Below the pieces are notes generated by a model. It searched no databases, had not been told where the DNA came from, and was given only the letters and a program-made list of their open reading frames with translations. From the NCBI GenBank assembly GCA_009694435.1, contig SHUY01000008.1:1-38676 (forward strand): a stretch of 38,676 nucleotides of DNA, given 5' to 3'. Origin of the DNA: Acidimicrobiia bacterium. Its GTDB lineage: Bacteria > Actinomycetota > Acidimicrobiia > IMCC26256 > PALSA-555. The position numbers and the translations under genes are program-made. Each line of letters starts with the position of its first letter. Positions within the stretch are counted from its first letter, which is position 1. Positions 1,751-34,785 of the stretch are shown here, one piece after another.

Positions 1751-1771
1751 ACTTCATCTCCCGTTTATTTA

Positions 1772-5414: not shown

Positions 5415-5464
5415 TTACTCATAATCGCACACTCAACCGACTCGGTGGGATAAGGTCGCAACTT

Positions 5465-7597: not shown

Positions 7598-7634
7598 ATA
7601 AGGCGCCCACGAAACAAGCACTTGCCAACTTGAA

Positions 7635-8891: not shown

Positions 8892-8911
8892 AGTTGGTCA
8901 ATTGTTGACCA
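8884..8911. promoter_or_regulatory. Candidate operator: inverted repeat TGGTCAA-TTG-TTGACCA plus an additional direct TTGGTCA half-site
   Basis: TTGGTCA (8884-8890), TGGTCAA (8895-8901), TTGACCA (8905-8911) in the divergent intergenic region between the ACAD and ferritin-like genes; overlaps the ACAD start codon. Confidence 0.5.
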
Positions 8912-9000
8912 TGATGAGGGGTTCATACGAGTCGAGAGTACCTTGAAGATAGAGCAGGAGCCGACCTCGGTTTCTGGTTATTAGGTTTAGGAGCAAGAAA

Positions 9001-10122: not shown

Positions 10123-10124
10123 AA

Positions 10125-12064: not shown

Positions 12065-12115
12065 GATTAATGACTCTATCTTGTCAATAAGTAAACTCTT
12101 TTACTGATTTGTGAG

Positions 12116-12736: not shown

Positions 12737-12758
12737 CAGCTCTGACACTATTGACGTT

Positions 12759-14027
12759 ATGGACTTACTCGCATTAGCTGACGATCTATGGGCGGGGAAG
12801 GATAGGTACAAACCTTTCGATAATCCAGGGGCGAAAGGCGAGATCGACGACAACACCCTTTTCGTTCATGGCTTCGCCAATGTCAATGCACTGCTCACTG
12901 ACGACGGGATAGTCCTTATTGATACCGGTAGTTCTCTAATGGCAAAAACTATGCACGACTCACTACGAACATGGAGTACCGACCGCATCAATACCGCAGT
13001 TTTTACTCACGGCCATATTGATCATTGTTTTGGAATTGATAATTATGACTCTGACAATGCCTCGTTGGGTTCGCAAGCCCCTAAGGTGATTGCCCATGAA
13101 GCCATAAAAGCCCGTTTTGATCGCTATAAAGTCACTGCTGGTTATAACGAACAAATAAACCGTCGTCAGTTTGGAATGAGCGATTTCGTTTGGCCACTCA
13201 ACTATCGCTACCCCGATATCACTTATCAAAAAAACTTTGACCTCTTAGTTGGCGGCGAGAAATTTGAACTTCACCACGCTCGGGGTGAAACCGATGATCA
13301 CACTTGGGTGTGGGCTCCTGACCGTAGCGTTGTTTGTGTAGGGGATCTATTTACTTGGGCCGCGCCTAACTGTGGTAATCCTCAAAAAGTCCAGCGCTAC
13401 CCCATGGAGTGGGCACAAGCACTGCGAGAAATAGCCACACTCAACGCGAACGTGATGTTGCCTGGCCACGGGTTACCGATAATTGGACCCGATCGAGTGC
13501 GTCAAGCGTTAGAGGAGAGCGCAGAGTTATTGGAATATCTCCACACCGAAACTCTTATTCTCATGAACGCGGGGGCCACTCTCAACGACATAATACATAG
13601 CGTTAAGGCTCCAGAACGATTGCTCGAACGACCGTACCTTCGTCCGGTCTACGACGACCCAGAATTTATTCTTCACAGTCTTTGGCGATTATACGGAGGA
13701 TGGTTTGATGGCAACCCCGCGCGATTAAAGCCCCCGAGCGATAAATCGCTGGCGGTTGAAGTCGCCGCGCTCGCTGGTGGACCAGTGGCACTTAGCCAAC
13801 GAGCACTTTTGGTGGCTGATAGCGGTGATCTTCGCTTGGCTGGTCAACTTATTGAATGGGCGCTAGACGCGTATCCAATAAAAGACCCAGATCGAAACGA
13901 AGTAGCCCAAATCTACTCACAGATAAATCGTCAGCGGGTGGCACAAGAAACTTCGCTGATGGCGAAAGGGGTATTTCGCGCCGCCGCACGTGAATCGAAC
14001 CCTAAGGCTAACGCCCCAGAAAACTGA
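12759..14027 (+). CDS. MBL-fold hydrolase with alkylsulfatase-type dimerisation domain
   Basis: FTHGHIDHCFG metal-binding motif, HHARGETDDHTWVW, PGHGLPI, followed by NPARLKPPSDKSLAVEVAALAGG helical region like the alkylsulfatase dimerisation domain. Start trimmed to MDLLALADDLW. Confidence 0.82.
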   Translation: MDLLALADDLWAGKDRYKPFDNPGAKGEIDDNTLFVHGFANVNALLTDDGIVLIDTGSSLMAKTMHDSLRTWSTDRINTAVFTHGHIDHCFGIDNYDSDNASLGSQAPKVIAHEAIKARFDRYKVTAGYNEQINRRQFGMSDFVWPLNYRYPDITYQKNFDLLVGGEKFELHHARGETDDHTWVWAPDRSVVCVGDLFTWAAPNCGNPQKVQRYPMEWAQALREIATLNANVMLPGHGLPIIGPDRVRQALEESAELLEYLHTETLILMNAGATLNDIIHSVKAPERLLERPYLRPVYDDPEFILHSLWRLYGGWFDGNPARLKPPSDKSLAVEVAALAGGPVALSQRALLVADSGDLRLAGQLIEWALDAYPIKDPDRNEVAQIYSQINRQRVAQETSLMAKGVFRAAARESNPKANAPEN

Positions 14028-15270
14028 TTACCTCAGCAGCAGATCGCAACCCAGTGGCGTAAGCCGCGTGGACTACCGCAGCAATAGATTCAGTAGCCGT
14101 GCCGTCACCCGCCCAAAATAAAGCGCCCGTGTCGGATGCCGCCAATGCTTGGCGCGATCCTGAGCCACCTACGCGCACGAAGCTGTAACCCCCGCGCGTA
14201 TTTTCGTTAGTGCACCAATCGACGCGTTGCGAATCTTCAATGAGTTGGCTAGGTAAGACCTTGGGGAAAATGCGATCAAGATCGGCCAAAGCAATCGCCA
14301 CCGCTTCGGCTTCGGTGCGAGCCGACAGTGCTCGGGCCCGATAGCCACCAACATAAGCAATTAGTACTGGGGTGGCGTCTTCACCCCAGCCGTAAAGTGG
14401 GGTCCAGTAGAGCCGAACGGGGCCATCACAGCCCACCATGGTTAATCCATCGTCCCAAAAGCGCTCTTTGAATCGGAACAAAATCTTCATCACCGAGCCC
14501 ATCTCTAAACCGTTAAGGGCTTGCCACTTGCTGGTGGGGAGATCAGGAGAAAATTGAATTGCCCCTGCCTTGAGCACTCCAATTGGAGCGGTACAGATAA
14601 CCGATCGGGCCGCGAACTCTTCGCCGGTGGTACTAAAAGCAGTAGCGCCCGATTCGCTCCACTGAATTTTGTCTACCTTTGTTTCGTACCGAACATCAAG
14701 ATTTTTGCCAATCCAAGCAGGCAAAGCGTCGTAGCCCGCAGTTAAACGCCAATCAACCCCTCGTTCAAGTTCAACCACTCGATCATCACGAATTCCGATC
14801 ATGCTTAACTGATCAAGATCACCCAGCGGGTGAACGGTGAGCATTTGCTCGGCCATTACCCGAGCAACGCCAGTAAGACCTTTACGGTCTACGAACTCCG
14901 CGGCCGTCATGTCGGGACCATCGAAAGCGGCGATCTCACTCAATAAATCGCCCAATTGGGCTAAGGAGGGATCTTGGTACAAATCGGGAGAGTCAACTCC
15001 GCCGATCGACATAATGTAGCCATCGGCGGGATTGCATTTAAGCGTTTCAAACTGACCCGCTTTTATCTCAATCCAAGTGTCGGCATTTTCGGTGTGAACA
15101 AACTCTGCTCCACACTCCACCGGTGCATTAGCAAAGTCTCGAGTAGTGAGCATGCGCCCACCAATGCGCTCGGTTGCCTCAAGTACTACCGCGGTAAGTC
15201 CGTTTCGTTCACATTCACGAGCTGCGGTAACTCCCGCCATGCCCGCCCCTAACACCACAACGTCATGCAT
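14008..15270 (-). CDS. FAD-dependent amine oxidase family protein
   Basis: VVLGAGMAGVTAARECERNGLTAVVLEATERIGGRM (GxGxxG) and C-terminal LFWAGDGTATESIAAVVHAAYATGLRSA. Confidence 0.92.
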   Translation of the reverse strand: MHDVVVLGAGMAGVTAARECERNGLTAVVLEATERIGGRMLTTRDFANAPVECGAEFVHTENADTWIEIKAGQFETLKCNPADGYIMSIGGVDSPDLYQDPSLAQLGDLLSEIAAFDGPDMTAAEFVDRKGLTGVARVMAEQMLTVHPLGDLDQLSMIGIRDDRVVELERGVDWRLTAGYDALPAWIGKNLDVRYETKVDKIQWSESGATAFSTTGEEFAARSVICTAPIGVLKAGAIQFSPDLPTSKWQALNGLEMGSVMKILFRFKERFWDDGLTMVGCDGPVRLYWTPLYGWGEDATPVLIAYVGGYRARALSARTEAEAVAIALADLDRIFPKVLPSQLIEDSQRVDWCTNENTRGGYSFVRVGGSGSRQALAASDTGALFWAGDGTATESIAAVVHAAYATGLRSAAEVISFLGR

Positions 15271-15317
15271 ACGGTGCTGATGATAGCGTCACCAAGACAT
15301 ACCAAGGAGCGAAGCTA

Positions 15318-16127
15318 ATGCGAATTAGTGAATCCAATATTCTTATTACTGGAGCATCTTCAGGAATCGGAGCCGAGTTAGCACCCTTGCTGGCATCGCG
15401 AGGGGCCACGGTAGGAATAGTGGCCCGGCGACAAGATCGACTAGAAGCAGTACTAGATAAATGTCGTACTTACGCACCTAAATCAAAACTGTGGGTAGCC
15501 GACCTGAGTGATCTCGAACAAGCAGAAAAAGTTGCTCTTGATGCCCAAGAGTATTTCGGTGGAGTTGACTGCTTAATAAATAATGCCGCTATACCCAAGG
15601 TGACTTCGATTGATCGACTGACTACTTCTGATTTGGAATCGGTCATGAAAGTTAATTTTTTATCTCCAGCAAGAATGACGCTGGCATTACTTCCCCACTG
15701 GCTAAAGCGCGGTGCGGGATGCGTAGTGAATATCTCGTCTTTAGGGGGAAGAATCGGAATTGTTCATGAGGCGGCCTACTGCTCGTCAAAATTTGCTCTT
15801 TGTGGTTGGAGTGAATCGATGGCTATAGATCTGGCGGGCACGGGGATAGAAGTTAAATTGATTCTTCCGGGACCCATTGAGACTGAGATCTGGGATCTGG
15901 CCGACAACGAAACTGCCCTTTATTCTGGGCCTCTAGTCCCGGTGTCCCAATGCGCCTCCAGTATCGCGTCGGCTATCGAGGAGGAGGGGTTCGAATTTTA
16001 TTGCCCGCCCGAATTTCCCGGTGGTGGTAAACAACACGACATCGTGGTGGGAAAGACCAGCAACATTGATCAGTTCATTGCCGCCGTCGGGTCAATGGCC
16101 ATAAGCGATAGAGAGGGAAAATCTTAA
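15318..16127 (+). CDS. SDR family oxidoreductase
   Basis: TGASSGIG, NNAA, YCSSK motifs. AAGGAG RBS upstream. Confidence 0.93.
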   Translation: MRISESNILITGASSGIGAELAPLLASRGATVGIVARRQDRLEAVLDKCRTYAPKSKLWVADLSDLEQAEKVALDAQEYFGGVDCLINNAAIPKVTSIDRLTTSDLESVMKVNFLSPARMTLALLPHWLKRGAGCVVNISSLGGRIGIVHEAAYCSSKFALCGWSESMAIDLAGTGIEVKLILPGPIETEIWDLADNETALYSGPLVPVSQCASSIASAIEEEGFEFYCPPEFPGGGKQHDIVVGKTSNIDQFIAAVGSMAISDREGKS

Positions 16128-20421: not shown

Positions 20422-20522
20422 GACAATGCTCATCTCCTTAGCAAGCAACACACCTTGTGACTGTCTTGGGCGAGACAATAGCCTGCCCGCCCGAGCCGGT
20501 GTTCGCTACTACGCTGCGAGAC

Positions 20523-21716
20523 ATGAACAATCCATTTGCCGAAAACGAAGACCAGCAGGCCTTGCGAACTTTGGCCCGAGACGTAGCCATGCGCGACCTT
20601 GCTCCGATGGCCCGCCACTGGGACGAGACCGAAGAATTCCCAGAAGGGTCTTGGGAAGCTATCCGCAAAGCAGGATTATTCGGAATAACGGTAGACGAAA
20701 AATACGGGGGTCACGGGTTTGGGGATATCGAAGCCGCCATTGTTTTAGAAGAGTTGGGTCGAGTTGATGTCTCTAGCGCCATTCTTGCTCAGTTAACTTT
20801 TAACGGGCCACCCCGAGCTATTCAGCATTTAGGTTCAGAGGAAATGAAGGAGCGTTGGCTTCCCATGGCGGCTTCGGGTGAAGCATTGTTTTGCATTGGA
20901 ATCAGCGAGACCGAAGCTGGGTCGGCCGTAACTCAAATGCGCGCTCGGCTTACCCCGGACGGGAACGGTTACCGACTCAACGGTTATAAAAACTACGTAA
21001 CGGGTGGACATCGGGCACGAGTTTGTTTGGTGTGGTGCCGTTTTCCTGAAAGCGAGGGTGCCAAAGGTATTGGTGCAGTACTGGTCGATTTAGAGTCTGA
21101 CGGAGTGACGATCGCCGGAACTCACGTCAAGATGGGACTGCGGGGGACCAGCGAAGCCGAACTAGCTTTCGACGATGTTCGCATTGAGCCCGAAGATGTG
21201 CTGAGCGTAGGTGACGCCACATCAAGCGAAACGTTTAAAACTCTGATTGCTCATATCAATCACGAGCGGTGCGGCAACGCAGCCATGTGTGTTGGTGCTG
21301 CTCAAGGATCTTTAGAATACGCGATCGGATATATGAACGAAAGAACTATTGGGGGAAAACCAATAGCCGAGTTGCAAGGTTTGCAGTGGAAAATTGCCGA
21401 CATGGCCACGCAAATAGAAGGGGCTCGACTTTTATTGTTACGGGCCGTTCATCTAGCCGGACCGCACGGAACTCCCCCCGCACTCGAAACCGCTATGGCC
21501 AAATCAGCAGCCAACCTCGCGGCCAAGTTTGTGTGCGACGAGGCAATCCAGTTGCTTGGTGGTTACGGGTACTCGCGGGAATATCCCGTCGAGCGGGCCT
21601 ACCGAGACATTCGTGGTTTATGTATCGGAGCGGGAACAGTCGAAATCCAGCGTAATTTCATCGGCTCACAGGTTCTTCGGGGCGCAGTTCCGGCTAGCGC
21701 CGGTTGGCGTAAGTAG
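20523..21716 (+). CDS. Acyl-CoA dehydrogenase
   Basis: GISETEAGSAVTQMRARLTPDGNGYRLNGYKNYVTGG; GGYGYSREYPVERAYRDIRGLCIGAGTVEIQRN. Start trimmed to MNNPFAENEDQ. Confidence 0.94.
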   Translation: MNNPFAENEDQQALRTLARDVAMRDLAPMARHWDETEEFPEGSWEAIRKAGLFGITVDEKYGGHGFGDIEAAIVLEELGRVDVSSAILAQLTFNGPPRAIQHLGSEEMKERWLPMAASGEALFCIGISETEAGSAVTQMRARLTPDGNGYRLNGYKNYVTGGHRARVCLVWCRFPESEGAKGIGAVLVDLESDGVTIAGTHVKMGLRGTSEAELAFDDVRIEPEDVLSVGDATSSETFKTLIAHINHERCGNAAMCVGAAQGSLEYAIGYMNERTIGGKPIAELQGLQWKIADMATQIEGARLLLLRAVHLAGPHGTPPALETAMAKSAANLAAKFVCDEAIQLLGGYGYSREYPVERAYRDIRGLCIGAGTVEIQRNFIGSQVLRGAVPASAGWRK

Positions 21717-21725: not shown

Positions 21726-23279
21726 GTGATAACTAAAAATTCTTCGCCGCGACCAAAAATAAGCGCGACTTATCGACACTTGGACGCCAAAAAATATCTT
21801 GCCCCGGGCGGTCCGTGGGCAATACCTACCCTTGATCAATTATTTAGAGTGGGTGGAGCAAATTCTTCGGGATCACTGATAACCGACCTTGAATCTGGTC
21901 TCAATCTTGACGCTCGGGCGCTGGAGGCGATGGTGGCGACTTTGGCCGGTGGGCTACGTACGGCCGGAGTGCGTCGGGGCGATGTGGTGGCTTGGCAATC
22001 CCCTAACTCGTGGGAAGTCGTTGTGCTTTATCGAGCGTGTTGGCGGTTAGGAGCAATAGCCGGGCCGATCCACCACCAAGCAGGGTCGGCCCACGTTGAA
22101 CACGCGCTAAATGTTCTTTCCCCTAAGATTTTTTTAAATCCAGAAGACATGCGGGGCCCTAATTCTCGCTTCGAAAAACTAATAGCCGGCAATGAAGTGG
22201 TTACCGATTCACCGGCTCGTGGATCCGATATTGCGGTGGCGCTATTTACTTCGGGGTCAACCGGATTACCTAAAGCGGCCTTACACACCCAACGGGGATT
22301 GGCTACTAAAGCGATCACCATGGCCAAGGCGCACGGATTAAAGCCTCAAGATGTGGTCCTCATGCCCGCTCCCCTAGCTCACATATCGGGCTTGCTCAAT
22401 GCGGTACTTATTCCTGGAGTAGTGGGAATGTCAGCCGGACTCATGCGGGCCTGGGACCCTGAAAATGCTCTAACTCGAATAGCAGACGAAAACGTATCGT
22501 TCATGATCGGCCCGCCCACATTCTTCCTGAGCCTTTTTTCCGCCCCCAATTTTCGCACTGAGCGCGCCCAGAGCCTGCGGCTGGTTTCGTGTGGCGGAGC
22601 AGGAATAACTCCAGCATTTGTGATCGAAGCTCGCCAGCGTCTCGACTGTGGAGTTAAGCGGACTTACGGGTCGACCGAGGCTCCGACCGTTACTACTAGC
22701 CGCTCAACCGACGATCCCCAAAAAGCAGCCGACACCGACGGTCGTATTGTTGGTGATGCTCAGTTGAAAATTGTGGACCCCACGACAAGGAGAGAACTGA
22801 GTCCAGGTTCAATTGGCGAGTTGGTACTACGAGGCCCCGAACTTTTTGTTGGTTACTCCGATATCAATTTGACTCGGGCCAGCATTAGCCGAGGATGGTT
22901 CAATACTGGCGATTTGGCTCAAGTTGACTCCGAAGGCTGGTTAACCATATCGGGACGAATCAAGGACGTGATAATTCGTGGGGGAGAAAATATCTCTGCG
23001 GCGGAAGTAGAAAGACTCTTAGAGGAACACCCCGCAGTCAAACACGCAGTAGTGGTGGGTGAACCTAACGAACGACTAGGCGAACGAGTGTGTGCGTTCG
23101 TGATCGCCGATGCTTCTTTTGACTTAGATGTTTGTCAGAAATGGTTCAGTGATTCAGGGGCTACTCGATTCACTACCCCCGAGCGGATAGTGAGAGTTGA
23201 CGAGTTCCCGCTATTAGCGGCCGGAAAACCCGATCGGGCGCGATTAAAAGACCAAGCCGGAGAACTCGCTCGGTCTTAA
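21726..23279 (+). CDS. AMP-dependent acyl-CoA synthetase/ligase
   Basis: ALFTSGSTGLPKAALHTQRG, YGSTEAPTVTTS, GWFNTGDLAQVDSEGWLTISGRIKDVIIRGGENIS, GKPDRARLKD. GTG start. Confidence 0.93.
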   Translation: MITKNSSPRPKISATYRHLDAKKYLAPGGPWAIPTLDQLFRVGGANSSGSLITDLESGLNLDARALEAMVATLAGGLRTAGVRRGDVVAWQSPNSWEVVVLYRACWRLGAIAGPIHHQAGSAHVEHALNVLSPKIFLNPEDMRGPNSRFEKLIAGNEVVTDSPARGSDIAVALFTSGSTGLPKAALHTQRGLATKAITMAKAHGLKPQDVVLMPAPLAHISGLLNAVLIPGVVGMSAGLMRAWDPENALTRIADENVSFMIGPPTFFLSLFSAPNFRTERAQSLRLVSCGGAGITPAFVIEARQRLDCGVKRTYGSTEAPTVTTSRSTDDPQKAADTDGRIVGDAQLKIVDPTTRRELSPGSIGELVLRGPELFVGYSDINLTRASISRGWFNTGDLAQVDSEGWLTISGRIKDVIIRGGENISAAEVERLLEEHPAVKHAVVVGEPNERLGERVCAFVIADASFDLDVCQKWFSDSGATRFTTPERIVRVDEFPLLAAGKPDRARLKDQAGELARS

Positions 23280-24379
23280 ATCAGTTGCTCGCCACTTTCA
23301 ACTCGAGTTCGCAACAACTGAGCCAGTCGCTCGCGATGATAAGAAGCGTCGCCAAACGAGAGTTGATCGACTTGAGCTCGTTTCATGTAGAAGTGGAGGT
23401 CATGTTCCCAGGTGAAGCCGATTCCGCCGTGAACTTGAAGAGCTGAAGCCATTACCCGTTTTGAGGCATCAGCTCCCCACACTTTGGCGGTTGATGCTGC
23501 GACCGAGGACTCGGGATCGTCAGCCGACAAGCACCATGCGGCCCAATAGACGCTTGAGCGCATTCCTTCGACATCAACCAACATATCGGCACAACGGTGC
23601 TTGACGGCCTGAAAACTTCCGATCGGTCGACCAAACTGGACTCGGTCTTTGGCGTACTCAACGGAAAACTCCAACACCCGTTCTGCTCCGCCGAGCATTT
23701 CGGCCGAAGAAAATACGGCGCCAAGGTTGAGCAAACGATTAACCGATTGAGCACCGCCAATTAACCACGCCGAAGTTTTGTTTAGATGAAGCCAACCAAA
23801 AGAACGCGTACGATCCATAGCGGGCTCAGATTTTATCTGGCCAACCGCCAAATCAACCCCGAACAAACTCGGACCGTCAGCACTGTCAGCGACTACTAAA
23901 GCGAACGAAGCCCCCGGCGCATCAAGGATTGGGTCGGGGCGGCCGGTAAGTTTCCAGTCACCATTCACTGCGGTTGCACTTACCGCAACAGGGTTACGGC
24001 TCCAGGCTACGCACACCGTAGATTGACCCGAAATAACTTTCTCTACTAATTCGCTAGATCGAATCGACTCGGGTTCATCACCGTGTTCGAGTGCATCGAG
24101 GGCTAATACGGTCGAAGCAAAAGGTGCGGGGGCTGCGTGGCGACCGATTTCTTCTAGCAGTACCGCAACTTCGACTATTCCTAAACCGAGACCACCCTTT
24201 GATTCAGGATGAGCGAGAGCGGGCCAACCTTGTTCCACCATTGCGCTCCAAAGATGAGCGTCGGTTCCGCCCGCGCCGTCGAAAATGGCCCGTACCGCAG
24301 TCGCCGAAGCCGCCGAGTCAAGGAGTTCGCGCGCTCCTTCTCGTAGCGCAATCTGGTCGTCGCCCAGTTCAAAATCCAT
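23276..24379 (-). CDS. Acyl-CoA dehydrogenase (small/beta-like FadE subunit)
   Basis: MDFELGDDQIALREGARELL..., VEYAKDRVQFGRPIGSFQAVKHRCADM, QVHGGIGFTWEHDLHFYMKRA. Start trimmed from 24604. Confidence 0.92.
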   Translation of the reverse strand: MDFELGDDQIALREGARELLDSAASATAVRAIFDGAGGTDAHLWSAMVEQGWPALAHPESKGGLGLGIVEVAVLLEEIGRHAAPAPFASTVLALDALEHGDEPESIRSSELVEKVISGQSTVCVAWSRNPVAVSATAVNGDWKLTGRPDPILDAPGASFALVVADSADGPSLFGVDLAVGQIKSEPAMDRTRSFGWLHLNKTSAWLIGGAQSVNRLLNLGAVFSSAEMLGGAERVLEFSVEYAKDRVQFGRPIGSFQAVKHRCADMLVDVEGMRSSVYWAAWCLSADDPESSVAASTAKVWGADASKRVMASALQVHGGIGFTWEHDLHFYMKRAQVDQLSFGDASYHRERLAQLLRTRVESGEQLI

Positions 24380-24387
24380 TAGCGATG

Positions 24388-24434
24388 AATCGTACCGGAG
24401 GACTCGCCTCCCTCGGCAAGCCAGTGGTACGATT
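24388..24434. promoter_or_regulatory. Nested inverted repeats in divergent ACAD/citrate synthase promoter; outer arms contain mirrored TACGAT -10-like boxes
   Basis: AATCGTACC (24388-24396) ... GGTACGATT (24426-24434), enclosing GGAGG-ACTCG-CCTCC (24397-24411). Confidence 0.55.
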
Positions 24435-24481
24435 GGCCCATCTAATAAAGGAGTAGTGCACAGCAGTGATTGAGGTTCGCC

Positions 24482-25792
24482 ATGGCTAACAGTGCGAACA
24501 ACGATAAGGCGATAATTCGTTATGGAGATAACGAAATCGAGCTCCCGATAGTTGAGGGAACCGAAAAAGAGCGAGCCATTGATATCGCCAAACTTCGATC
24601 CCAAAGTGGGCTTATTACTCTCGATTATGGATTCGTAAATACTGGTTCGTGCGAATCAGCCATCACTTTCATCGATGGTGAAGAAGGAATCCTGCGTTAT
24701 CGAGGAATTCCGATCGAGCAATTAGTTTCGGGACACGAGCCGTCATTTTTAGAAACTTCGTTTTTGCTCATCAATGGCGACCTTCCGACCGAAAGCCAGC
24801 TCGATCAATTTCGTTATTCGATTCGCAAACATACGCTTTTGCACGAAGACGCTCGTAGATTTTTTGACGCTTTTCCTAAAGATGCCCACCCCATGGGAGT
24901 GCTCTCCTCGGTAGTAAGTGCTCTCTCGACTTTTTATCCTGACTCGAACAACCCTCACGACCCGGCGCAATTTGAATTGGCCATGATCCGCCTGATGGCA
25001 AAACTTCCCACTATTGCGGCTTACTCCTACAAGCGGTCTATCGGTCAGCCTCTCCTCTACCCCGATAACGAACTTGATCTCATCGAAAACTTCCTAACCA
25101 TGATGTTCGCCGTCCCTTCAGAAAATTATGTGGCGACCCCCACCATGGTTCACGCCATGAAAGTGCTTTTGATTTTGCACGCTGATCACGAACAAAACTG
25201 TTCTACTTCAACAGTGCGTTTGGCCGGATCTAGCGACGCCAATTTGTTTGCCTCAGTGGCGGCGGGAATTAACGCCTTATGGGGACCTCTCCACGGTGGC
25301 GCTAATCAAGCCGTAATTGAGATGCTCGAGAAAATTCAATCTGAAGGTGGAGACTTAAAACGTTTTGTTGAAATGGCGAAAAGCAAAGATAATGATTTTC
25401 GTCTTTCAGGTTTCGGTCATAGAGTTTATAAAAAGTACGACCCCCGAGCGCTCATTCTAAAGAAGGTCGCGGAAGACGTAATGGCCGATATGAACAGAAA
25501 TGATCCCCTACTCGATCTCGCGAAAGAGTTGGAAGAGATTGCCTTGGCGGATGATTACTTTATTGAGAACCGGCTGTATCCGAACGTAGATTTTTATTCG
25601 GGGTTCATCTACCGAGCTATGGGGTTCCCTACCAACATGTTTACCGTTCTCTTTGCTATGGGACGATTGCCCGGTTGGATTGCTCACTGGAAAGAAATGA
25701 TGGAGAATCCCCGCACCAAAATTGGTCGACCTCGGCAGATTTACATCGGAGAGACCGAACGTAAATACACTCCCCTCGACCAAAGAATTTAA
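24482..25792 (+). CDS. gltA: Citrate synthase
   Basis: ITFIDGEEGILRYRGIPIEQL, LHADHEQNCSTSTVRLAGSSDANLFASVAAGINALWGPLHGGANQAV, GFGHRVYKKYDPRA. Start trimmed from TTG 24470 to ATG 24482. Confidence 0.95.
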   Translation: MANSANNDKAIIRYGDNEIELPIVEGTEKERAIDIAKLRSQSGLITLDYGFVNTGSCESAITFIDGEEGILRYRGIPIEQLVSGHEPSFLETSFLLINGDLPTESQLDQFRYSIRKHTLLHEDARRFFDAFPKDAHPMGVLSSVVSALSTFYPDSNNPHDPAQFELAMIRLMAKLPTIAAYSYKRSIGQPLLYPDNELDLIENFLTMMFAVPSENYVATPTMVHAMKVLLILHADHEQNCSTSTVRLAGSSDANLFASVAAGINALWGPLHGGANQAVIEMLEKIQSEGGDLKRFVEMAKSKDNDFRLSGFGHRVYKKYDPRALILKKVAEDVMADMNRNDPLLDLAKELEEIALADDYFIENRLYPNVDFYSGFIYRAMGFPTNMFTVLFAMGRLPGWIAHWKEMMENPRTKIGRPRQIYIGETERKYTPLDQRI

Positions 25793-25802
25793 GACTCGCT
25801 CC

Positions 25803-26993
25803 GTGGATCTGGCGCCATCGCCGGCTGAAGCTCAACTGCGCCTCGAAGTGCGCTCGTGGTTGCAAGAAAATCTTCCTTGGGAGTACGGGCGGGGTCTTCC
25901 TCCTCGTTTTGAAACCCTCGAAGAAGAAGTTGCCTTTGGCCGAACGTGGCAAAACCAACTGGCCCAAGGGCGCTGGGTTGGGGTTCCGTGGCCAACGCAG
26001 TACGGCGGTCGCGGCGCGGGACCAGTTGAACATTTCATCGTCACCGAAGAGTTGGCCCGTGCTCGAGCACCCGAATTGGTTGGGCGGATCGGGATAAACC
26101 TAGTCGGACCAACTCTGTTGGCTCACGGAACTGATGAACAAAAGCAGCGTTGGCTTCCATCAATCCCACCGGCCGAACATATCTGGTGTCAACTATTTAG
26201 TGAACCTGGCGCAGGAAGCGACCTTGCGGCGATTACGACTCGGGCCGAGATGAAAGGGGACGACTGGATACTTAATGGTCAAAAAGTGTGGACTTCATAC
26301 GCGCAATTCGCAGACTGGGGCTTGTGTCTCGCTCGCACTGACCCTGATGGTCCTAAACATAAGAGCATTACCGCTTTCGCGGTTGATATGCGAGCTCTCG
26401 GAGTAGAAGTCCGACCGTTGCACCAAATCACCGACGAAAAAGAATTCAACGAAGTTTTTTTTAGTGACGTAATTATTCCTGACGCTCATCGTATCGGTCC
26501 AGTAAATGAAGGCTGGCGGGTGGCTAACTCGACTCTTACTCACGAGCGAGGAATCAACCCGCGCCAACTAGTAATTCATCTCCAGCTGGTAGAAGAACTG
26601 CTGCGGTTGGCGCTTGAAAATGGCGCATTCGATGATCCGCGCTTGCGCCCTCGCCTTGCTCAAGCGGTTGTTGAAGTCCGTTTGTTTCAGCTTCACAACT
26701 GGCGAACTCTGTCCCGATTAGCCAAAGGAGAGGCCCCCGGCCCAGAAGGAAGCGCGCTCAAGCTCTATTGGAGTGAGATGAGTAAGCGAATGCACGACAC
26801 CGTTATGGCCGTGTTGGGGCCCGCCGCACCTTTATGGATCGGGGCCGACGAAAACCCCGGAGAAGGAACTTGGCAAAGATCTTGGCTCTATTATCAGGCA
26901 TCCTCGATATGGGCCGGAACTAACGAGATCCAGCGCAATATCTTGAGCGAACGGGTGTTGGGGCTACCAAAAGAACCGGCGCGTACTGGCTAG
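25803..26993 (+). CDS. Acyl-CoA dehydrogenase (large FadE subunit)
   Basis: WCQLFSEPGAGSDLAAITTRAEMKGDDWILNGQKVWTSYAQ, SSIWAGTNEIQRNILSERVLGLPKE. Start placed at GTG 25803, just after the citrate synthase stop. Confidence 0.92.
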   Translation: MDLAPSPAEAQLRLEVRSWLQENLPWEYGRGLPPRFETLEEEVAFGRTWQNQLAQGRWVGVPWPTQYGGRGAGPVEHFIVTEELARARAPELVGRIGINLVGPTLLAHGTDEQKQRWLPSIPPAEHIWCQLFSEPGAGSDLAAITTRAEMKGDDWILNGQKVWTSYAQFADWGLCLARTDPDGPKHKSITAFAVDMRALGVEVRPLHQITDEKEFNEVFFSDVIIPDAHRIGPVNEGWRVANSTLTHERGINPRQLVIHLQLVEELLRLALENGAFDDPRLRPRLAQAVVEVRLFQLHNWRTLSRLAKGEAPGPEGSALKLYWSEMSKRMHDTVMAVLGPAAPLWIGADENPGEGTWQRSWLYYQASSIWAGTNEIQRNILSERVLGLPKEPARTG

Positions 26994-27062: not shown

Positions 27063-27908
27063 ATGGCAACAAAATCTGAATTCACCACTATTCGCTATTC
27101 GGTTGAAGGACCCGTAGCCACCATAACTTTGGCTCGGCCAGAATCCGCTAACGCCATGAGCTCGGTGCTTATTGACGAGCTAGACCGTGCTCTCGATTTA
27201 GTAGAAGAAGATGATGAAGTTCGCGTCGTGATCCTTGACGGTGAAGGCAAGCATTTTTGTGCCGGCCATGACCTAAAAGAGATACTCGAAGAATCGAGCG
27301 ACTGGACCCGTATGCGCTCAACGCCGGAAGGAAAATTGCATCACGAGTTCACTATGTACTGGGAAAAATGTCTCCGGTTAAGAGATTTTCCTAAACCCAC
27401 CATCGCGGCAGTTCAAGGAGTATGCGCGGCCGCGGGTTTAATGCTCGCAACTATGTGTGATCTCATAATCGCCGCGGACAACGCAAAGTTTTCTAACCCA
27501 GTTGCTCGCATGACCGGAGTTGGGGTTGAGTTGCTGATTGAACCATGGGAAATGGGTCCCCGAAAAGCCAAGGAGTTCTTGCTCTGCGCGACCACGATTG
27601 ATGCCGGCGAGGCTTTACGACTCGGACTGGCTAATCGGGTGGTAAAGCTTGATCAATTAAGCACCGAGGCCCGACTGATGGCCGATGAAGTGGCATTAGT
27701 GCCACCGATTACCGCCCAAGCAATAAAAGAGACCATTAATCACACGGTTGACCTTCAGGGACAGAGAGAAGCTTGGCGATATCACTTTATGGTGCACCAG
27801 TTTGTTAGCAACACCGAAACGGCCCTTGGAGCCATGAGTAACCGCAAAGAAGCTGTGCGCGAAGAGGGTGGTCTTGGCTCGGTCAAGCGCGAACAGTCCG
27901 GCGGATGA
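27063..27908 (+). CDS. Enoyl-CoA hydratase/isomerase family protein
   Basis: ITLARPESANAMSSVLIDEL, FCAGHDLKE, AAVQGVCAAAGLMLATMCDLIIAADNAKF. Confidence 0.93.
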   Translation: MATKSEFTTIRYSVEGPVATITLARPESANAMSSVLIDELDRALDLVEEDDEVRVVILDGEGKHFCAGHDLKEILEESSDWTRMRSTPEGKLHHEFTMYWEKCLRLRDFPKPTIAAVQGVCAAAGLMLATMCDLIIAADNAKFSNPVARMTGVGVELLIEPWEMGPRKAKEFLLCATTIDAGEALRLGLANRVVKLDQLSTEARLMADEVALVPPITAQAIKETINHTVDLQGQREAWRYHFMVHQFVSNTETALGAMSNRKEAVREEGGLGSVKREQSGG

Positions 27909-29118
27909 AAGATTGCCCGTGAGTGGGCCACTAACGGGTCTAAGAGTTCTTGATTTAGGAACCCGTATAGCGGCGCCTTTTTGTGCGGGATTGTTGGGCG
28001 AACAAGGCGCAGAAGTAATAAAAATCGAACAACCCGGCAACGGTGATTTCATGCGTGACATCGGTCCCTTTGCTCCCGACGAAAACGGTGAGGACTACTC
28101 ATTGTTTTGGTCAGTCGAGGGACGGGGACGCAAAAGCGTAACTATTGATCTACGTACTTCTGATGGTCAACTTCTACTCATGCGTTTGGCCGAAACCGCT
28201 GACGTCTTGGTAGAAAACTTTCGTCCCGGAACGCTGGAAAAGTGGAACATTGGCCCCAATAGCCTTAACGATCGCCTAATAACCGTGCGCATAAGCAGCT
28301 TTGGTCAAGACGGACCGCTATCGCCTCGACCAGGATTAGATCGCGTAGGTATTGGCTTTGGTGGGCTTTTGCACTTAACCGGTTACCCCGACCGACCACC
28401 CGTGCGAGTAGGCGTCACTATTTCGGATTACCTGACTGGAGTATTTTCGGCTCATGCTGCGGTAGCCGCCCTCTACGGACGCGATGCCCGGGGCGGAACT
28501 GGAGTGGTTATTGATGCCAGTCTTTATGGCTCCTCGCTAAGAGTTTTGGAATGGACCTTGGCGGCTTATGACCGCTTAGGAACCATACGTAATCGAGAAG
28601 GGAACCAACTAGCCAACTCGGCCCCGCTAGACAACTACCCCACGGCCGACGGGAAATACGTATGCATAGTGGCCGGCTCGGACGCCAACTTCGCCCGATT
28701 AGCTACCGCGATGGAGATGACTGAGCTCATCACCGACGAACGTTTCGCTCGATTGTCAGATCGAGTTGAACACCACCAAGAAATAAATGACATGGTCGCC
28801 AAGTGGACTAGTTCTCTTTCGGCTGATGAAGTAGAGAGACGTTGTGCCGCCAAAGATGTTCCGGTTGCCACTGCGGCCACCGCGGCCGATATTTTTGCTA
28901 ATGCTCATATAGCGGAGCGTTCGGATCTAGTGAGTGTTAACGACCCCGTGTTAGGTCCCATCCGCCAGCAGGCACCCTACCCCCGCGTGGCCGGCACTAC
29001 TCCCGAGGCTCCCGTTGGCGCACCAAAACTTGGACAGCACACCCGCGAAGTTTTAAGCGATTTACTCGGGCTCAGCGACACCCAACTCGATGATCTATCT
29101 GAGCGAGGTGTGGTGTGA
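27868..29118 (+). CDS. CaiB/BaiF (family III) CoA-transferase
   Basis: GLRVLDLGTRIAAPFCAGLLGEQGAEVIKIEQPGNGDFMRDIGPF, GRGRKSVTIDLRTSDGQ, VENFRPGTLEKWNIG. GTG at 27919 is an alternative start. Confidence 0.92.
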   Translation: MVLARSSANSPADERLPVSGPLTGLRVLDLGTRIAAPFCAGLLGEQGAEVIKIEQPGNGDFMRDIGPFAPDENGEDYSLFWSVEGRGRKSVTIDLRTSDGQLLLMRLAETADVLVENFRPGTLEKWNIGPNSLNDRLITVRISSFGQDGPLSPRPGLDRVGIGFGGLLHLTGYPDRPPVRVGVTISDYLTGVFSAHAAVAALYGRDARGGTGVVIDASLYGSSLRVLEWTLAAYDRLGTIRNREGNQLANSAPLDNYPTADGKYVCIVAGSDANFARLATAMEMTELITDERFARLSDRVEHHQEINDMVAKWTSSLSADEVERRCAAKDVPVATAATAADIFANAHIAERSDLVSVNDPVLGPIRQQAPYPRVAGTTPEAPVGAPKLGQHTREVLSDLLGLSDTQLDDLSERGVV

Positions 29119-29516
29119 CTGCCCGTATGGTTCACGACGGACTGTTTCGCCTTGACTCCGACGGGGACATCCGACTTTTAGGATCGCGCTGCGAGGAGTG
29201 CTCTCATCTTCAGTTTCCAGTAGCCGAAACCTGCTCTATGTGCGGATCGGAGCGCAGCACAACGATTGACCTTGAGCGCCAAGGAACGCTGTGGCTTTCT
29301 ACGGTGGTGACTAATGCCCCACCAGGATATCTCGGTGAAGTTCCTTACGGCTTCGGTGTAGTGGAATTACCTAGTGGGTTGCGAATAATCACCCTAATCA
29401 CCGAAAAAGAAGTAGTTGAGTTTGGAACTCCGTTGCGTTTAGTGGCCCACGATTTAGGAATCAATGATGACGGGGAAATGGTCGTCACCTACGCGTTTAG
29501 CCCAGGTTCGTCATGA
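29115..29516 (+). CDS. Zn-ribbon domain-containing OB-fold protein (DUF35)
   Basis: Two CxxC pairs (GSRCEECSHLQFPVAETCSMCGS) followed by an OB-fold-like segment. GTG start overlaps the CaiB stop (GTGA). Confidence 0.9.
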   Translation: MTARMVHDGLFRLDSDGDIRLLGSRCEECSHLQFPVAETCSMCGSERSTTIDLERQGTLWLSTVVTNAPPGYLGEVPYGFGVVELPSGLRIITLITEKEVVEFGTPLRLVAHDLGINDDGEMVVTYAFSPGSS

Positions 29517-30643
29517 CCAACTCAGTGGCCGTAGCGGGCGTGGGACTGCACCCCTTCGGGCGATTTGATCGCACAGTTACTCAGATGGGAGTTAGCGCGG
29601 TACGCGCGGCACTAGAGGATGCCGGCAATCCAAGTTTTCAATCTGTCTTCTGTGCCACGGTCTATTCGGGAGTGGCCGCAGGCCACAAAGTACTTGGCGC
29701 TCTAGGTCTAACTGGAACTCCAATTGTCAATGTAGAGGCCGGATGTGCCAGCGGTGGTGCGGCTTTGATGCTGGCGACCAACGCAGTGCGCTCTGGTCAA
29801 TGCGATACCGCCTTAGTTTTAGGGATCGAAAAAATGCCCCGGGGAATTATTCGTTCTTCATTTTTCGAACCGTGGCGAGAACAATCGGGCTTAGCCGCCA
29901 CACCGGCCTACTTCGCTTTGCGAGCCATGCGCCTGATGAGGGATTCGGGCATCACCAAAGAAGACCTCGCACAAATCGTGGTCAAGAACCGAGCCGAAGG
30001 AGTAAACAACGAAATAGCGATGTATCGAACGGCGACCACGGTTGAAGCAGTTTTGGAATCACGTTTGGTATGCGAGCCTCTTCATCTTCATATGCTTTGC
30101 TCGCCCAACGAAGGAGCGGCGGCGATCGTAGTCCAGCGTAGCGATCTAGCGCGACGGGATGCTCCGAAAATCGCGAGCGCGCAATTGCGTTCCCATTTGC
30201 CCGGATCGATACTGGGTGAAGCCACCCCTTTAAGTGGAGTAGCCGACGAGAACATACCAGCGGCAAGCACCATTGCCGCTCACGCGGCGTTTGAAGAAGC
30301 CGGCTACGGGCCCGACGACCTCGATCTAATCGAATGTCAAGATACCGATGCCGCGCGCGAGATTCTTGCTTACGAAGAACTCGGGTTGTGCGCTCGAGGT
30401 GATTCGGCTCAATTGGTAAGAAACGGTGACACCGCTCGGGGTGGCCGTTGGCCCGTCAACCTCAGTGGCGGTCTGCTGTCTAAAGGTGAGCCGCTAGGTG
30501 CTTCTGCTCTTGCGCAGATAATCGAGTTAAGTAATCAAATCGATGGTCGTGCTGGAATTAGGCAAATAGAAAATGCCCAAATCGGATTAGCGCACACGGT
30601 AGGTCGAGGGGCTAACGCTGCAGTGGTGATTATCACCAAATAA
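29513..30643 (+). CDS. Thiolase-superfamily SCPx/Ltp-like protein with altered catalytic motifs
   Basis: VNVEAGCASGGAAL, LIECQDTDAAREILAYEELGLC, VNLSGGLLSKGEPLGASALAQI: SCPx-like architecture. ATGA overlap with DUF35. Confidence 0.9.
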   Translation: MTNSVAVAGVGLHPFGRFDRTVTQMGVSAVRAALEDAGNPSFQSVFCATVYSGVAAGHKVLGALGLTGTPIVNVEAGCASGGAALMLATNAVRSGQCDTALVLGIEKMPRGIIRSSFFEPWREQSGLAATPAYFALRAMRLMRDSGITKEDLAQIVVKNRAEGVNNEIAMYRTATTVEAVLESRLVCEPLHLHMLCSPNEGAAAIVVQRSDLARRDAPKIASAQLRSHLPGSILGEATPLSGVADENIPAASTIAAHAAFEEAGYGPDDLDLIECQDTDAAREILAYEELGLCARGDSAQLVRNGDTARGGRWPVNLSGGLLSKGEPLGASALAQIIELSNQIDGRAGIRQIENAQIGLAHTVGRGANAAVVIITK

Positions 30644-30646: not shown

Positions 30647-32335
30647 TTAGCGGTTGCGGAGAAACCATGCTTGAGGGTCCCAAGTACGCAGAGAGTTGAC
30701 CTCGTCTTGTGTTGGTGGCTCAAGTTCTCGCACCGTTTCGGCCACTTCTAAATCCCAGCCACACGCAGCCACCGCAGCAGCAATGCGCTCGTCTTTAGAT
30801 TCCGGACCAGGGGCAACCGCAGTAAGAACGAGATCACTCTTTGCGTCAGAGCGTTCAAGGATTCCAAAATCGGTAACTAGTGCTCGCACTGCTTTACCGG
30901 GCGAAGTGATGTAGCCACATTCTGACGGGGTGCGCTCGGGGGTAAGCAACGCGACCACGATCGCTTCGGCACACACCGAGGCCACGTCATTGCCACCACC
31001 GGAACCAACCAAAAACGCACCGCCAGGGATGACAGTTGAGTTCACATTTCCTCGTCGATCTATCTGAGCGCCGCCCAAACACGCCAGAGTGGTAGTTCCT
31101 TGTCCGCCCACCAAACTCCCCAGCACAGTGCTGGCGTCACTGATCATTAACGACCGCGGAAAATTGCGATGATTAAGAACGAACGGATCTCCGGGCACGG
31201 GGTCGTAACCCCAAAGCCCGATCTCGGCGGTTAGTTGCACCGCGTGACCTTGCGCTTGCGCTTGCGCTACCGCCAGCCACGCAGCCAAATTGGCGACTCC
31301 CGCCCCCGCCAATACTGCATCGGCCTTGAGCGCTATCACTCGCTCGGTTAAGTGACGGGCGCCCCAAATGGCTGCCATCTCCCAACGGTTAATAGGCGCT
31401 TCAAGATCAGGAGGATTGTCGATTACTTCTTGTCGCCACGACTGCGGATCGGCTTTTTGTCGCAGTTTTTCTACTCGCTTTGAGCCCAAACGTTCGACGT
31501 AATCAGCCGGACTAGAAACGTCAAGTATCCAGTGGCGAATCCACTCATCAAAATCATCTCGGCGCGAAGCAGCTCGAGCTTCAATCCAAAAATCGTAATC
31601 TTCGCCATAACTTTCTACCGGGAGCGCGCCACTAAATAATCCTCCGGGGTGGGCCCCCATCGGGACTTCGCACACCGCTAAAACTCGATGAGCAGGAATA
31701 CGCACTAGATGGGACCACTCGCTTAAGTCGTCAACCACTTTTTCTACCGTTACTACCGCTCCACGACGAGCCGCCAATGCCCCCCACGGGCTTTCTAGCA
31801 ATGGCGGATGCAGGGCCACATTTCCGGCTCGGTCGGCTACCGGAGCGTGGAGCAAAGCCACGTCAGGAAATAATGGGGCCAAAAGACCAATTTCACCCAA
31901 CTCAGTAGTGACCCGAGTAAAGGCAGGATTTTCTTCCATTGATGAGCCCGCGATTGAGCGAGTCACAATAGCGGGAAGTCCTCGAGCCGCAGCTTCAAGG
32001 CGTTGAGTGAACGCTAAAAATGACCAGTGTTCAACTTCTACTTCGCCACGGGCGTAACTGGAAGCAAAAATAGGATTGGGAGTGAAATTGGGGAAAGTGT
32101 CGCCCGAATATCCAGTGAGGACTTTACGAACAAGTCCCCCTTTGAAAAACAAAGTTCCTAAACTTGACAGCGAAAGCATTAATAACTCAAAGCCAGGATC
32201 TTTGCCCCACCATTGGCGGACTACTTCACTTGCGGCGGCAGTCCAGCGAGTGTGTCCGACTCCTAAATAAATCGAATCGCCCGCCCGCACATTTTCAGAG
32301 ATTGCGTCAGTAAGCGAAACTACTTTTTCGTTCAT
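30647..32335 (-). CDS. Fused alpha-beta family I CoA-transferase-like protein (IpdA-IpdB-like fusion)
   Basis: 562 aa. N-half resembles IpdA/alpha subunit (AISENVRAGDSIYLGVGHTRWTAAASEVV; VPMGAHPGGLFSGALPVESYGEDYDFW; SSPADYVERLG). C-half resembles beta subunit (QLTAEIGLWGY; LACLGGAQIDRRGNVNSTVIPGG; RALVTDFGILE; LPPTQDEV-like end). Confidence 0.82.
   Translation of the reverse strand: MNEKVVSLTDAISENVRAGDSIYLGVGHTRWTAAASEVVRQWWGKDPGFELLMLSLSSLGTLFFKGGLVRKVLTGYSGDTFPNFTPNPIFASSYARGEVEVEHWSFLAFTQRLEAAARGLPAIVTRSIAGSSMEENPAFTRVTTELGEIGLLAPLFPDVALLHAPVADRAGNVALHPPLLESPWGALAARRGAVVTVEKVVDDLSEWSHLVRIPAHRVLAVCEVPMGAHPGGLFSGALPVESYGEDYDFWIEARAASRRDDFDEWIRHWILDVSSPADYVERLGSKRVEKLRQKADPQSWRQEVIDNPPDLEAPINRWEMAAIWGARHLTERVIALKADAVLAGAGVANLAAWLAVAQAQAQGHAVQLTAEIGLWGYDPVPGDPFVLNHRNFPRSLMISDASTVLGSLVGGQGTTTLACLGGAQIDRRGNVNSTVIPGGAFLVGSGGGNDVASVCAEAIVVALLTPERTPSECGYITSPGKAVRALVTDFGILERSDAKSDLVLTAVAPGPESKDERIAAAVAACGWDLEVAETVRELEPPTQDEVNSLRTWDPQAWFLRNR
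31249..31268. repeat. Short tandem repeat (CTTGCG)3 within CDS
   Basis: CTTGCGCTTGCGCTTGCGCT; encodes AQAQAQ on the minus strand. Confidence 0.9.
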
Positions 32336-32355: not shown

Positions 32356-33450
32356 TTAGGCCGAGTCAAGAACAAGATCGGCTAAACGGTTGCGCTGGTA
32401 TCCCTGATAACCAAGAAGTATGTCGTTTTGTTTGGCCCGCTTATAATAAAAATGGGCGTCACAGTCCCAAGTGAAACCTACTCCCCCGTGAACTTGAATA
32501 TCTTCCGAGGACACGAAGATGGCAGCCTCGCCGATAAAACCTTTAGCCATTGCTACGGCTCGTTCTCGTGCGGGGTCGTCAACATCAGAAGTCCAGGCGG
32601 CGTAATGCGAACCAACTCGAGACAACTCAAGGCGATGCAACATATCTACTGCCTTGTGGCGTATGGCTTGGAATTTTGATAATGGTCGGTCAAATTGAAC
32701 TCTAACTTTGGCGTATTCGACCGCCAAATTGAGTGATGCATCGCACGCGCCTACGAGTTCGGAGGAAAGCATTACCGCGGCATCATCAACAACTCGATTC
32801 CAAATCTCGGTGTGGTCGCCTAGCGGCCCAATAGCCTCAGCGGGAGTTTCGTCAAGTTTTAGATAAGCCGCTTTGCGAGTGGGATCAAGAGTGGGAACCG
32901 CTTCGGCTTTTGGTGCTTGGATCAAGAAAGATCCAATGCCGTCTTCGGTGCGAGCCGCCACAATTACCCAGTCGGCGCTGTGACCATCAAGCACCATTAT
33001 CTTTTCGCCCGACAAAACCCAGTCGGCACCCTTGCGCCGAGCGCGAGTGCGCACTCGCTTTATGGGATCGCCATGACCTTGTTCTTCAATCGCCACCGTG
33101 CCCCGCAGCGTGCCCGAGGCCAAAGCGGATAACAGATCGCTAGCCCCTAAACGCTGAGCCGCCAAAGTGGCGAACACGGCCGAAGAAAAGAACGGCCCCG
33201 GAAACGGTAAGCGCCCCATTTCTTCCATGACTACCGCCATGTCGACTAGACCCAAGCCCAAACCACCGTGCTCTTCGGCAATCAAAAGCCCCGGCCAACC
33301 CATGTCGGCGATTTTCCGCCACATCTCGTCGGTAAAGCCCCGCTCGTCGTCGGCCATAGCTCGGGTGTAGGTACCCGAAGCCTCGTTGGTCAAAAATGAC
33401 CGGACGGCATCCCGCAGAGCGTCTTGGTCATCGGAGAAGGTGAAGTCCAT
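32356..33450 (-). CDS. Acyl-CoA dehydrogenase (small/beta-like FadE subunit)
   Basis: MDFTFSDDQDALRDAVRSFL, VEYAKVRVQFDRPLSKFQAIRHKAVDM, QVHGGVGFTWDCDAHFYYKRAK. AGAGGA RBS. Confidence 0.93.
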   Translation of the reverse strand: MDFTFSDDQDALRDAVRSFLTNEASGTYTRAMADDERGFTDEMWRKIADMGWPGLLIAEEHGGLGLGLVDMAVVMEEMGRLPFPGPFFSSAVFATLAAQRLGASDLLSALASGTLRGTVAIEEQGHGDPIKRVRTRARRKGADWVLSGEKIMVLDGHSADWVIVAARTEDGIGSFLIQAPKAEAVPTLDPTRKAAYLKLDETPAEAIGPLGDHTEIWNRVVDDAAVMLSSELVGACDASLNLAVEYAKVRVQFDRPLSKFQAIRHKAVDMLHRLELSRVGSHYAAWTSDVDDPARERAVAMAKGFIGEAAIFVSSEDIQVHGGVGFTWDCDAHFYYKRAKQNDILLGYQGYQRNRLADLVLDSA

Positions 33451-33576: not shown

Positions 33577-34785
33577 ATGGACTTCGCTCACACCCCTGAA
33601 GATGAAGCTTTCCGCTCAGAGTTGCGAACTTGGCTTGACGTCAACCTGCCTAAATTCTTGGCCGACTGGGGTGGCGACGAAGATCCGGGGGGCGGTCGGC
33701 AAGGTGGCATCGCTCGGTCGCAGGATCGGCGCAAGGACTGGCAAAAACGGCTCGACGAGGGTCGCTGGGCGGCTATCAACTGGCCTCTTGACTGGCACGG
33801 ACGCGAAGCCACACCGGTACAAAACGTTATTTACTCCGAAGAAATGGCTCGAGTGCGCGCGCCGGGTATCTACAACGCCAACGGTTTATGGCAAATCGGA
33901 CCGATGATCATTCATTGGGGTAACGAAGAGCAGCGCAATGAATGGCTGCCCGGTATTCTTTCTGCGGAAGAACATTGGTGCCAAGGGTTTAGTGAACCAC
34001 AGGCCGGTTCTGACCTCGCCAACTTGCGCACAACCGCAGTGCTAGACGGTGATGAATACGTAGTGAACGGGCAAAAAATATGGACTTCTACTGCGCACTT
34101 GGCTAAGTGGGGATTATTTCTTTTGCGCACTGATCCGACCGCAATTGAGCGAGGTGCAAAGCACGAAGGAATAACTGCTTTCATTATTGACATGGATACA
34201 CCCGGAATTGAATGTCGTCCCATTCGCGACATAGTGGGTGAAGAAATGTTTAACGAAGTTTGGTTCACCGATGCACGTATTCCTGTAGCGCACCGACTCG
34301 GCGAAGAAGGCGCGGGCTGGAAAGTAGCCATGGGGACTCTGGGCCACGAACGAGTAGGCACCGCGGGGTTGGCCATCACGATGGCCGCCGATTTGCGAGC
34401 AATGATCTCGGCGGCACGGGCAGTCAACCCTGACTCGCTTAACGATCCGGAAATTCGGGAGCGGATCGCTCGGGCCTATACCGATATTGAATTCACTAAG
34501 TTGCTTAACTACCGCGCGCTAACAAAGATTATTAAGGGGCAGAAAAACTGGCCAGAAGTTCCGTTGGCAAAATTACAGTGGAGCCACTTGGCGCAAACTT
34601 TGGCCGAATTAGCGATTGATCTCCTTGGCCCTTCGGGTCTACTCGCTAAAGGTGGCCCCGGAGCGATTGACGGCGGGAGTTGGACTCGCCTTTACAGCTT
34701 CCAGCGCTACACCTCGATTGGTGCGGGGGCAACCGAAGTACAAAAGAACATCATTGCGGACCGCGCGATATTTCCTCGTACTTAA
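33577..34785 (+). CDS. Acyl-CoA dehydrogenase (large FadE subunit)
   Basis: MDFAHTPEDEAFRSELRTWLDVNLP, WCQGFSEPQAGSDLANLRTTAVLDGDEYVVNGQKIWTS, SIGAGATEVQKNIIADRA. AGGAG RBS. Confidence 0.94.
   Translation: MDFAHTPEDEAFRSELRTWLDVNLPKFLADWGGDEDPGGGRQGGIARSQDRRKDWQKRLDEGRWAAINWPLDWHGREATPVQNVIYSEEMARVRAPGIYNANGLWQIGPMIIHWGNEEQRNEWLPGILSAEEHWCQGFSEPQAGSDLANLRTTAVLDGDEYVVNGQKIWTSTAHLAKWGLFLLRTDPTAIERGAKHEGITAFIIDMDTPGIECRPIRDIVGEEMFNEVWFTDARIPVAHRLGEEGAGWKVAMGTLGHERVGTAGLAITMAADLRAMISAARAVNPDSLNDPEIRERIARAYTDIEFTKLLNYRALTKIIKGQKNWPEVPLAKLQWSHLAQTLAELAIDLLGPSGLLAKGGPGAIDGGSWTRLYSFQRYTSIGAGATEVQKNIIADRAIFPRT

Follow-up and report, generated by a model that had tools for sequence, protein, structure and literature searches.

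A single-chain family I CoA-transferase with a conserved beta-half glutamate, probably distinct from the IpdAB hydrolase, in an Acidimicrobiia bacterium

Introduction

The question raised by this locus is whether a protein that unites the alpha and beta halves known from family I CoA-transferases in one chain is a ring-cleaving hydrolase of the IpdAB kind or a true transferase. The original prediction, which described an IpdAB-like protein retaining a beta-subunit Glu, left three options: a real CoA-transferase, an intermediate or a new ring-cleaving variant. The window is the whole stretch of DNA that was analysed (38,676 nucleotides). The reading preferred here, with a probability of roughly 0.78, is that the protein is a Glu-dependent single-chain family I CoA-transferase of local acid catabolism and not an IpdAB ring-cleaving hydrolase. 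GCT, glutaconate CoA-transferase; Pct, propionate CoA-transferase.

The gene and its product

The size (562 aa) and interval (30647-32335) first given for the ORF stand; the ORF listing places it on the minus strand, and a plus-strand reading is ruled out by many stops in the interval. The 562-aa protein matches Pfam PF01144 (CoA_trans) above cut-off (6e-22). Both halves are matched in one chain, alpha then beta, and this match and the AlphaFold model bear out the claim that a single ORF encodes them. The Glu of QLTAEIGLWGY is residue 371, and its GAG codon lies where it had been placed. The features are as follows.

30647..32335, minus strand: a 562-aa single chain in which alpha and beta halves are fused, a probable family I CoA-transferase (ORF; Pfam CoA_trans; AlphaFold pLDDT 92.9; fold match to SCOT/ASCT/YdiF)
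31436..32335, minus strand: alpha half, residues 1-300, GctA-like, with the GAHPGG motif and without an equivalent of IpdA Glu105 (1poi_A profile match, E 3e-26; column comparison)
30650..31435, minus strand: beta half, residues 301-562, GctB/PcaJ-like (profile and alignment)
31223..31225, minus strand: GAG codon of Glu371 within LTAEIGLWGYxPxP, predicted to be the catalytic residue (catalytic-Glu column of GCT, PcaJ, split relatives and T. brucei ASCT)
30986..31006, minus strand: GSGGGND loop, residues 444-450, predicted oxyanion-hole loop (conservation; GCT-like as against IpdB)

This is not a chance ORF, because fused homologues 44-79% identical over essentially the full length are found in dozens of genomes and 79 residues are invariant among 67 fused sequences.

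Distribution of the fused gene

The fused gene is present in all 12 genomes of the window's own family (70-79% identity) and in 48 of the 296 genomes of a class-wide sample, fragments at contig ends being counted. Single-chain homologues elsewhere in the phylum are 38-49% identical. The 80 loci recovered in a named scan belong nearly all to Acidimicrobiia or unclassified Actinomycetota MAGs, plus Actinomycetospora. Fused homologues also occur in plasmid records of Rhodococcus, Streptomyces and Azoarcus, where their annotation says no more than CoA-transferase. No break at the alpha/beta junction was seen in the match tables; the breaks found are contig ends or isolated frameshifts. A description of the single-chain clade was not found in the literature searched, and this branch appears uncharacterised.

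Some record labels call for comment. Four MAG records titled Bifidobacterium breve (L093, L096, L127, L129) carry acidimicrobial-type genes, some in the window gene order, and the label looks wrong. Two records labelled Acidobacteria or Acidobacteriota (L109, L140) carry a fused gene of 57-62% identity with acidimicrobial-type neighbours; they are either mislabelled bins or cases of transfer.

Fold and profile relatives

An alignment of 53 sequences (the window protein and relatives) gave an AlphaFold2 model with a mean pLDDT of 92.9 and a pTM of 0.92. Its best fold matches in the PDB are T. brucei ASCT, mammalian SCOT and E. coli YdiF, all single-chain family I CoA-transferases. These share with the window protein the alpha-beta order in one chain and the motif E-x-G-[LI]-x-G-x-x-P; identity in the fold alignments is 15-18%, and the YdiF sequence-profile match is weak (E 2.5e-4). 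In the model, Glu371 lies in a turn after the strand 367-370 and before a short strand (374-375). This setting is like that of the catalytic Glu46 of CtfB, which sits between two short antiparallel strands (PMC12400318).

By profile comparison, the closest match of the N-half is GctA (1poi_A, 3e-26), IpdA being weaker (1e-12). For the C-half, GctB is matched (4e-16) and no IpdB appears at E<=1e-3. NCBIfam has no specific family for the fused protein, giving only pcaI/pcaJ far below cut-off. GctAB (Acidaminococcus fermentans, PDB 1poi) is thus the best profile relative of the alpha half and a good one of the beta half. It has the ExG catalytic motif, a GSGGAN loop and the GAHP motif in alpha; it differs in having two separate subunits and in the long branch between it and the fused clade in the tree described below.

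The catalytic glutamate and diagnostic residues

The main alignment includes fused proteins, split pairs of the same class, PcaIJ-type pairs, GCT (1poi) and IpdAB (from the window's own genome, from relatives, and 6con and 6co6). The Glu371 column has Glu in 36/36 fused proteins, 7/7 PcaJ-type proteins, GCT and 15/17 split relatives, and Gly in 6/6 IpdB; the predicted retention of a beta-subunit Glu therefore holds, as does the statement that IpdAB lacks the catalytic glutamate. The Gly column agrees with the published change from Glu54-beta of GCT to Gly57-beta in IpdAB of RHA1 (PMC5380842). The fused-family profile independently pairs aElG with SENG of T. brucei ASCT. Glu is found at this column in all 88 distinct fused proteins examined (the 67, 16 further deep members and 5 plasmid members).

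A second column separates the two types in the opposite direction. At the position of IpdA Glu105, Glu is found in 6/6 IpdA and in 0/36 fused proteins, all of which have F, I, V or L. In PDB 6coj the alpha chain differs from 6co6 by Glu to Ala at this position, which marks Glu105 as a residue studied by the IpdAB authors; it is presumably essential for IpdAB. GCT and PcaI have a conserved Gln here (PQG/SQD). The hydrophobic residue of the fused clade suggests a less polar acid pocket, as judged from the alignment, so the substrate or even the reaction could differ.

In family I CoA-transferases a glycine-rich beta loop forms the oxyanion hole. The fused proteins have GSGG(G/A)ND, invariant except at residue 448 (G/A); the loop of GCT (FTGSGGANG) resembles it, whereas that of IpdB (FGVRGAPGN) does not.

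The motifs on which the IpdAB likeness had been based are less specific than supposed. The N-half motif, given as PGGxHF, actually reads GAHPGGLFSGALPVESYGEDYDFW; its counterparts are GAHPSQCYGLYDYD in GCT and GAHFTTAAPDYGRD in IpdA, and it is not diagnostic of IpdA because it is common to both. In the C-half, the RGNxN and FDFG-type segments regarded as IpdB-like (RGNVN and TDFG) are general family features, GCT beta having YGNVNST and TDKG.

One alternative is that the protein is a single-chain counterpart of IpdAB that cleaves rings by hydrolysis, its beta Glu acting as a general base and not as a nucleophile. The fold superfamily is the same and local motifs are shared with IpdA and IpdB; against this, the Glu105 column is never Glu and the IpdB Gly column is always Glu in the fused proteins.

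Glu alone is no proof of a transferase, because a carboxylate at the catalytic-Glu site can also support acyl-CoA hydrolysis, as in Asp variants (PMC12400318). The protein could accordingly be an acyl-CoA thioesterase in the CoA-transferase fold, which would recover CoA from an acid that is a dead end or the end product of the pathway. That a Glu-to-Asp change turns the site into a hydrolase (PMC12400318) is consistent with this, as is a weak profile match to the acetyl-CoA hydrolase 2g39. The residue is always Glu and never Asp in the 88 fused proteins, and a thioesterase is considered unlikely.

Phylogeny

The maximum-likelihood tree includes 67 concatenated alpha-beta pairs and is unrooted. 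Of the SCOT and Pct relatives it covers only the split PcaIJ/ScoAB-type. The fused proteins are set apart from all others by a branch with 100/100 support. The other lineages are the PcaIJ-type, in its own 100%-supported clade, and a group of GCT, split pairs and IpdAB, in which IpdAB nests among the split pairs.

The AU test rejects an exclusive clade of fused proteins and IpdAB (p=0.007), and on this ground the protein is not counted as a member of the IpdAB clade. Both this result and the marginal rejection of a clade that also includes the sister pairs of IpdAB (AU p=0.044) weigh against a fused IpdAB-like hydrolase. A grouping of fused proteins with the PcaIJ-type is not rejected (AU p=0.52), but this test does not discriminate, because such a grouping is compatible with the unrooted best tree. 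Membership of SCOT (OXCT1-type) was likewise discarded, the PcaIJ-type clade lying apart from the fused clade in a tree that holds only the split PcaIJ/ScoAB. The firm placement inside ordinary SCOT/propionate CoA-transferases that would have refuted the original prediction is not seen: relative to the PcaIJ/ScoAB-type, the part of these families that the tree covers, the fused clade is a lineage of its own. Since the fused clade is a lineage apart from these split relatives of SCOT, its fusion may have arisen independently of the SCOT-type fusion.

An evolutionary intermediate between a transferase and IpdAB, the second option of the original prediction, is not supported, because the replacement of Glu by Gly maps within the group that joins GCT, split pairs and IpdAB, to which the fused clade does not belong.

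Two split pairs that are sister to IpdAB (locus L062, 8122-9935 and 13202-14895) lack Glu at the beta catalytic column; the first, at least, carries Glu where IpdA has Glu105. They are only about 30-33% identical to IpdA/IpdB and are candidate IpdAB-like hydrolases.

Genuine IpdAB in the same genome

Another contig of the same MAG (C49) encodes proteins matching 6con_A (9e-97) and 6co6_B (1e-78). At 361-5437 of this contig, genes resembling those for IpdC, IpdB, IpdA, a lipid-transfer thiolase, an OB-fold protein and EchA20 stand one after another, which looks like a HIP cluster. The ipdC/echA20 neighbourhood is therefore on a contig other than that of the fused gene and not beside it. A search of the MAG for KshA_C (steroid 9-alpha-hydroxylase) found none; as the MAG is incomplete, this absence says little.

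IpdB (>=50% identity) is also found in 42 of the 48 class genomes with the fused gene. This co-occurrence (Fisher p about 1e-21), which would fit a fused IpdAB-like hydrolase, is confounded by relatedness and was not counted as evidence of shared function. Conversely, IpdB stands without the fused gene in 41 genomes, and in three near-complete ones (95-98%) the fused gene is present but IpdB was not detected. Because genuine IpdAB is encoded separately in the same genome and each gene also occurs without the other, the fused protein and IpdAB are two distinct enzymes, even if one organism frequently carries both.

IpdAB (COCHEA-CoA hydrolase, PDB 6co6/6con) shares with the fused protein the fold superfamily and about 29% identity in the alpha half. 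It differs in Gly for the beta Glu, alpha Glu105, another oxyanion-type loop, separate subunits and a separate clade. Residues, tree and the authentic IpdAB elsewhere in the genome rule out that the fused protein is IpdAB itself, and the IpdAB framing of the original prediction falls with the nearer GctA/GctB profiles. A fused hydrolase merely like IpdAB is held to be quite improbable. Of the three options first proposed, the real CoA-transferase is the best supported, by the Glu column, the GCT-like loop, the fold and the profiles.

Gene neighbourhood

The neighbours of the fused gene are listed below. Counts are out of 37 related loci with enough flank, except for the order of the adjacent dehydrogenase gene, which is out of 67.

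20457..21716, plus strand: acyl-CoA dehydrogenase (15/37 loci)
21726..23279, plus strand: AMP-forming acid-CoA ligase; the nearest model is cyclohexanecarboxylate-CoA ligase, far below cut-off (12/37)
25722..26993, plus strand: acyl-CoA dehydrogenase, PimC-large-like (15/37)
27063..27908, plus strand: enoyl-CoA hydratase/isomerase (13/37)
27868..29118, plus strand: family III (CaiB-type) CoA-transferase (17/37)
29115..29516, plus strand: ChsH2-type OB-fold/zinc protein, thiolase partner, BbsA-like (17/37)
29513..30643, plus strand: thiolase-like protein (lipid-transfer/BbsB-like), convergent neighbour (19/37)
32356..33450, minus strand: acyl-CoA dehydrogenase, IpdE2/PimD-small-like, 20 bp upstream of the fused gene on the same strand (same order in 12/67 loci)
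33577..34785, plus strand: acyl-CoA dehydrogenase, PimC-large-like, divergent from the preceding gene (9/37)

The dehydrogenase gene at 32356..33450 is likely in the same operon as the fused gene. The product of 33577..34785 is a possible partner subunit of its product. Two sets, each of an IpdE2/PimD-small-like and a PimC-large-like protein (23276-24604 with 25722-26993; 32356-33450 with 33577-34785), suggest two heteromeric acyl-CoA dehydrogenases in the cluster. By analogy with benzylsuccinate (bbs) pathways, the gene set resembles one in which an activated acid would undergo beta-oxidation and thiolytic release.

This context raises a further alternative, an intramolecular CoA-transferase that would move CoA between the carboxyls of a (cyclic) dicarboxylic acid and so enable the adjacent acyl-CoA dehydrogenase, like ThnP/ThnO. 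The closely spaced dehydrogenase gene upstream fits, since thnP and thnO likewise share an operon and their products act together (PMC11659651), and several acyl-CoA dehydrogenases of the cluster have weak pimeloyl-CoA-dehydrogenase matches. However, ThnP is a protein of the Cat1 subgroup in which Gly takes the place of the Glu (PMC11659651), unlike the window protein, and the pairing of dehydrogenase and fused gene is immediate in only 12/67 loci. Such an activity is hardly to be expected.

Around deeper fused homologues (36-43% identity) the neighbouring genes are unrelated, so no single function follows from context and the argument from context holds for the Acidimicrobiia/Rhodococcus type only. 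At L181 and L184, where the fused homologue is about 40% identical, the genes next to it are of glycosyltransferase, radical SAM, flavin oxidoreductase or phosphoesterase type and not genes of acyl-CoA catabolism. The fused clade may hold more than one function.

A homologue in Rhodococcus jostii RHA1

RHA1_RS43630, on plasmid pRHL3 (NC_008271), encodes a single-chain CoA-transferase that is 38% identical to the window protein over the full length, with the same Glu motif and a homologous gene set around it. Genes for an AMP ligase, CaiB, thiolase, OB-fold protein, acyl-CoA dehydrogenase, two hydratases, SDR and the fused CoA-transferase lie together at 5126-15740 of pRHL3; a GntR regulator gene interrupts the group. 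RHA1_RS43630 is annotated only as CoA-transferase, and its function was not found in the open-access literature searched.

Proposed function and meaning

A Glu-dependent CoA-transferase is the best explanation of what was computed, namely the fold, how residues correspond in the alignment, how well they are conserved, the fusion itself and the genes around it. By analogy with homologues whose Glu was tested, transfer would be ping-pong. A short acyl-CoA or an acyl-CoA of the pathway would give its acyl group to Glu371, forming an acyl-glutamyl anhydride that would be converted into a glutamyl-CoA thioester at the same residue; the acceptor of CoA would then be a carboxylic acid from the catabolic pathway encoded nearby. 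The alpha half would form the acid pocket; CoA would bind in the beta half, which also carries Glu371 and the predicted GSGG oxyanion loop. The substrate, speculatively, is probably an alicyclic or dicarboxylic acid or a ring-opened product, because the neighbours are a CoA ligase, a CaiB transferase, acyl-CoA dehydrogenases, a hydratase and a thiolase/OB-fold pair.

A bolder and rather unlikely reading is that the fused clade is a functionally distinct CoA-transferase or CoA-isomerase dedicated to acids formed by opening alicyclic or polycyclic rings. Its catabolic pathway would be widespread in Acidimicrobiia and so far undescribed, would run alongside IpdAB in the same cells and would be shared with Rhodococcus catabolic plasmids. 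The conventional reading holds: the protein is a Glu-bearing and fairly ordinary member of a long-known CoA-transferase family.

The comparison gives a clean natural contrast in one fold superfamily and often in one genome: alpha Glu105 and beta Gly are found together with IpdAB, a non-acidic alpha residue and beta Glu with the transferase type. The two residues are usable as an annotation rule, with caution against naming every actinobacterial CoA-transferase pair in steroid degraders IpdAB. As RHA1 carries a homologue and IpdAB has been studied in RHA1, the function of the single-chain clade is directly testable there.
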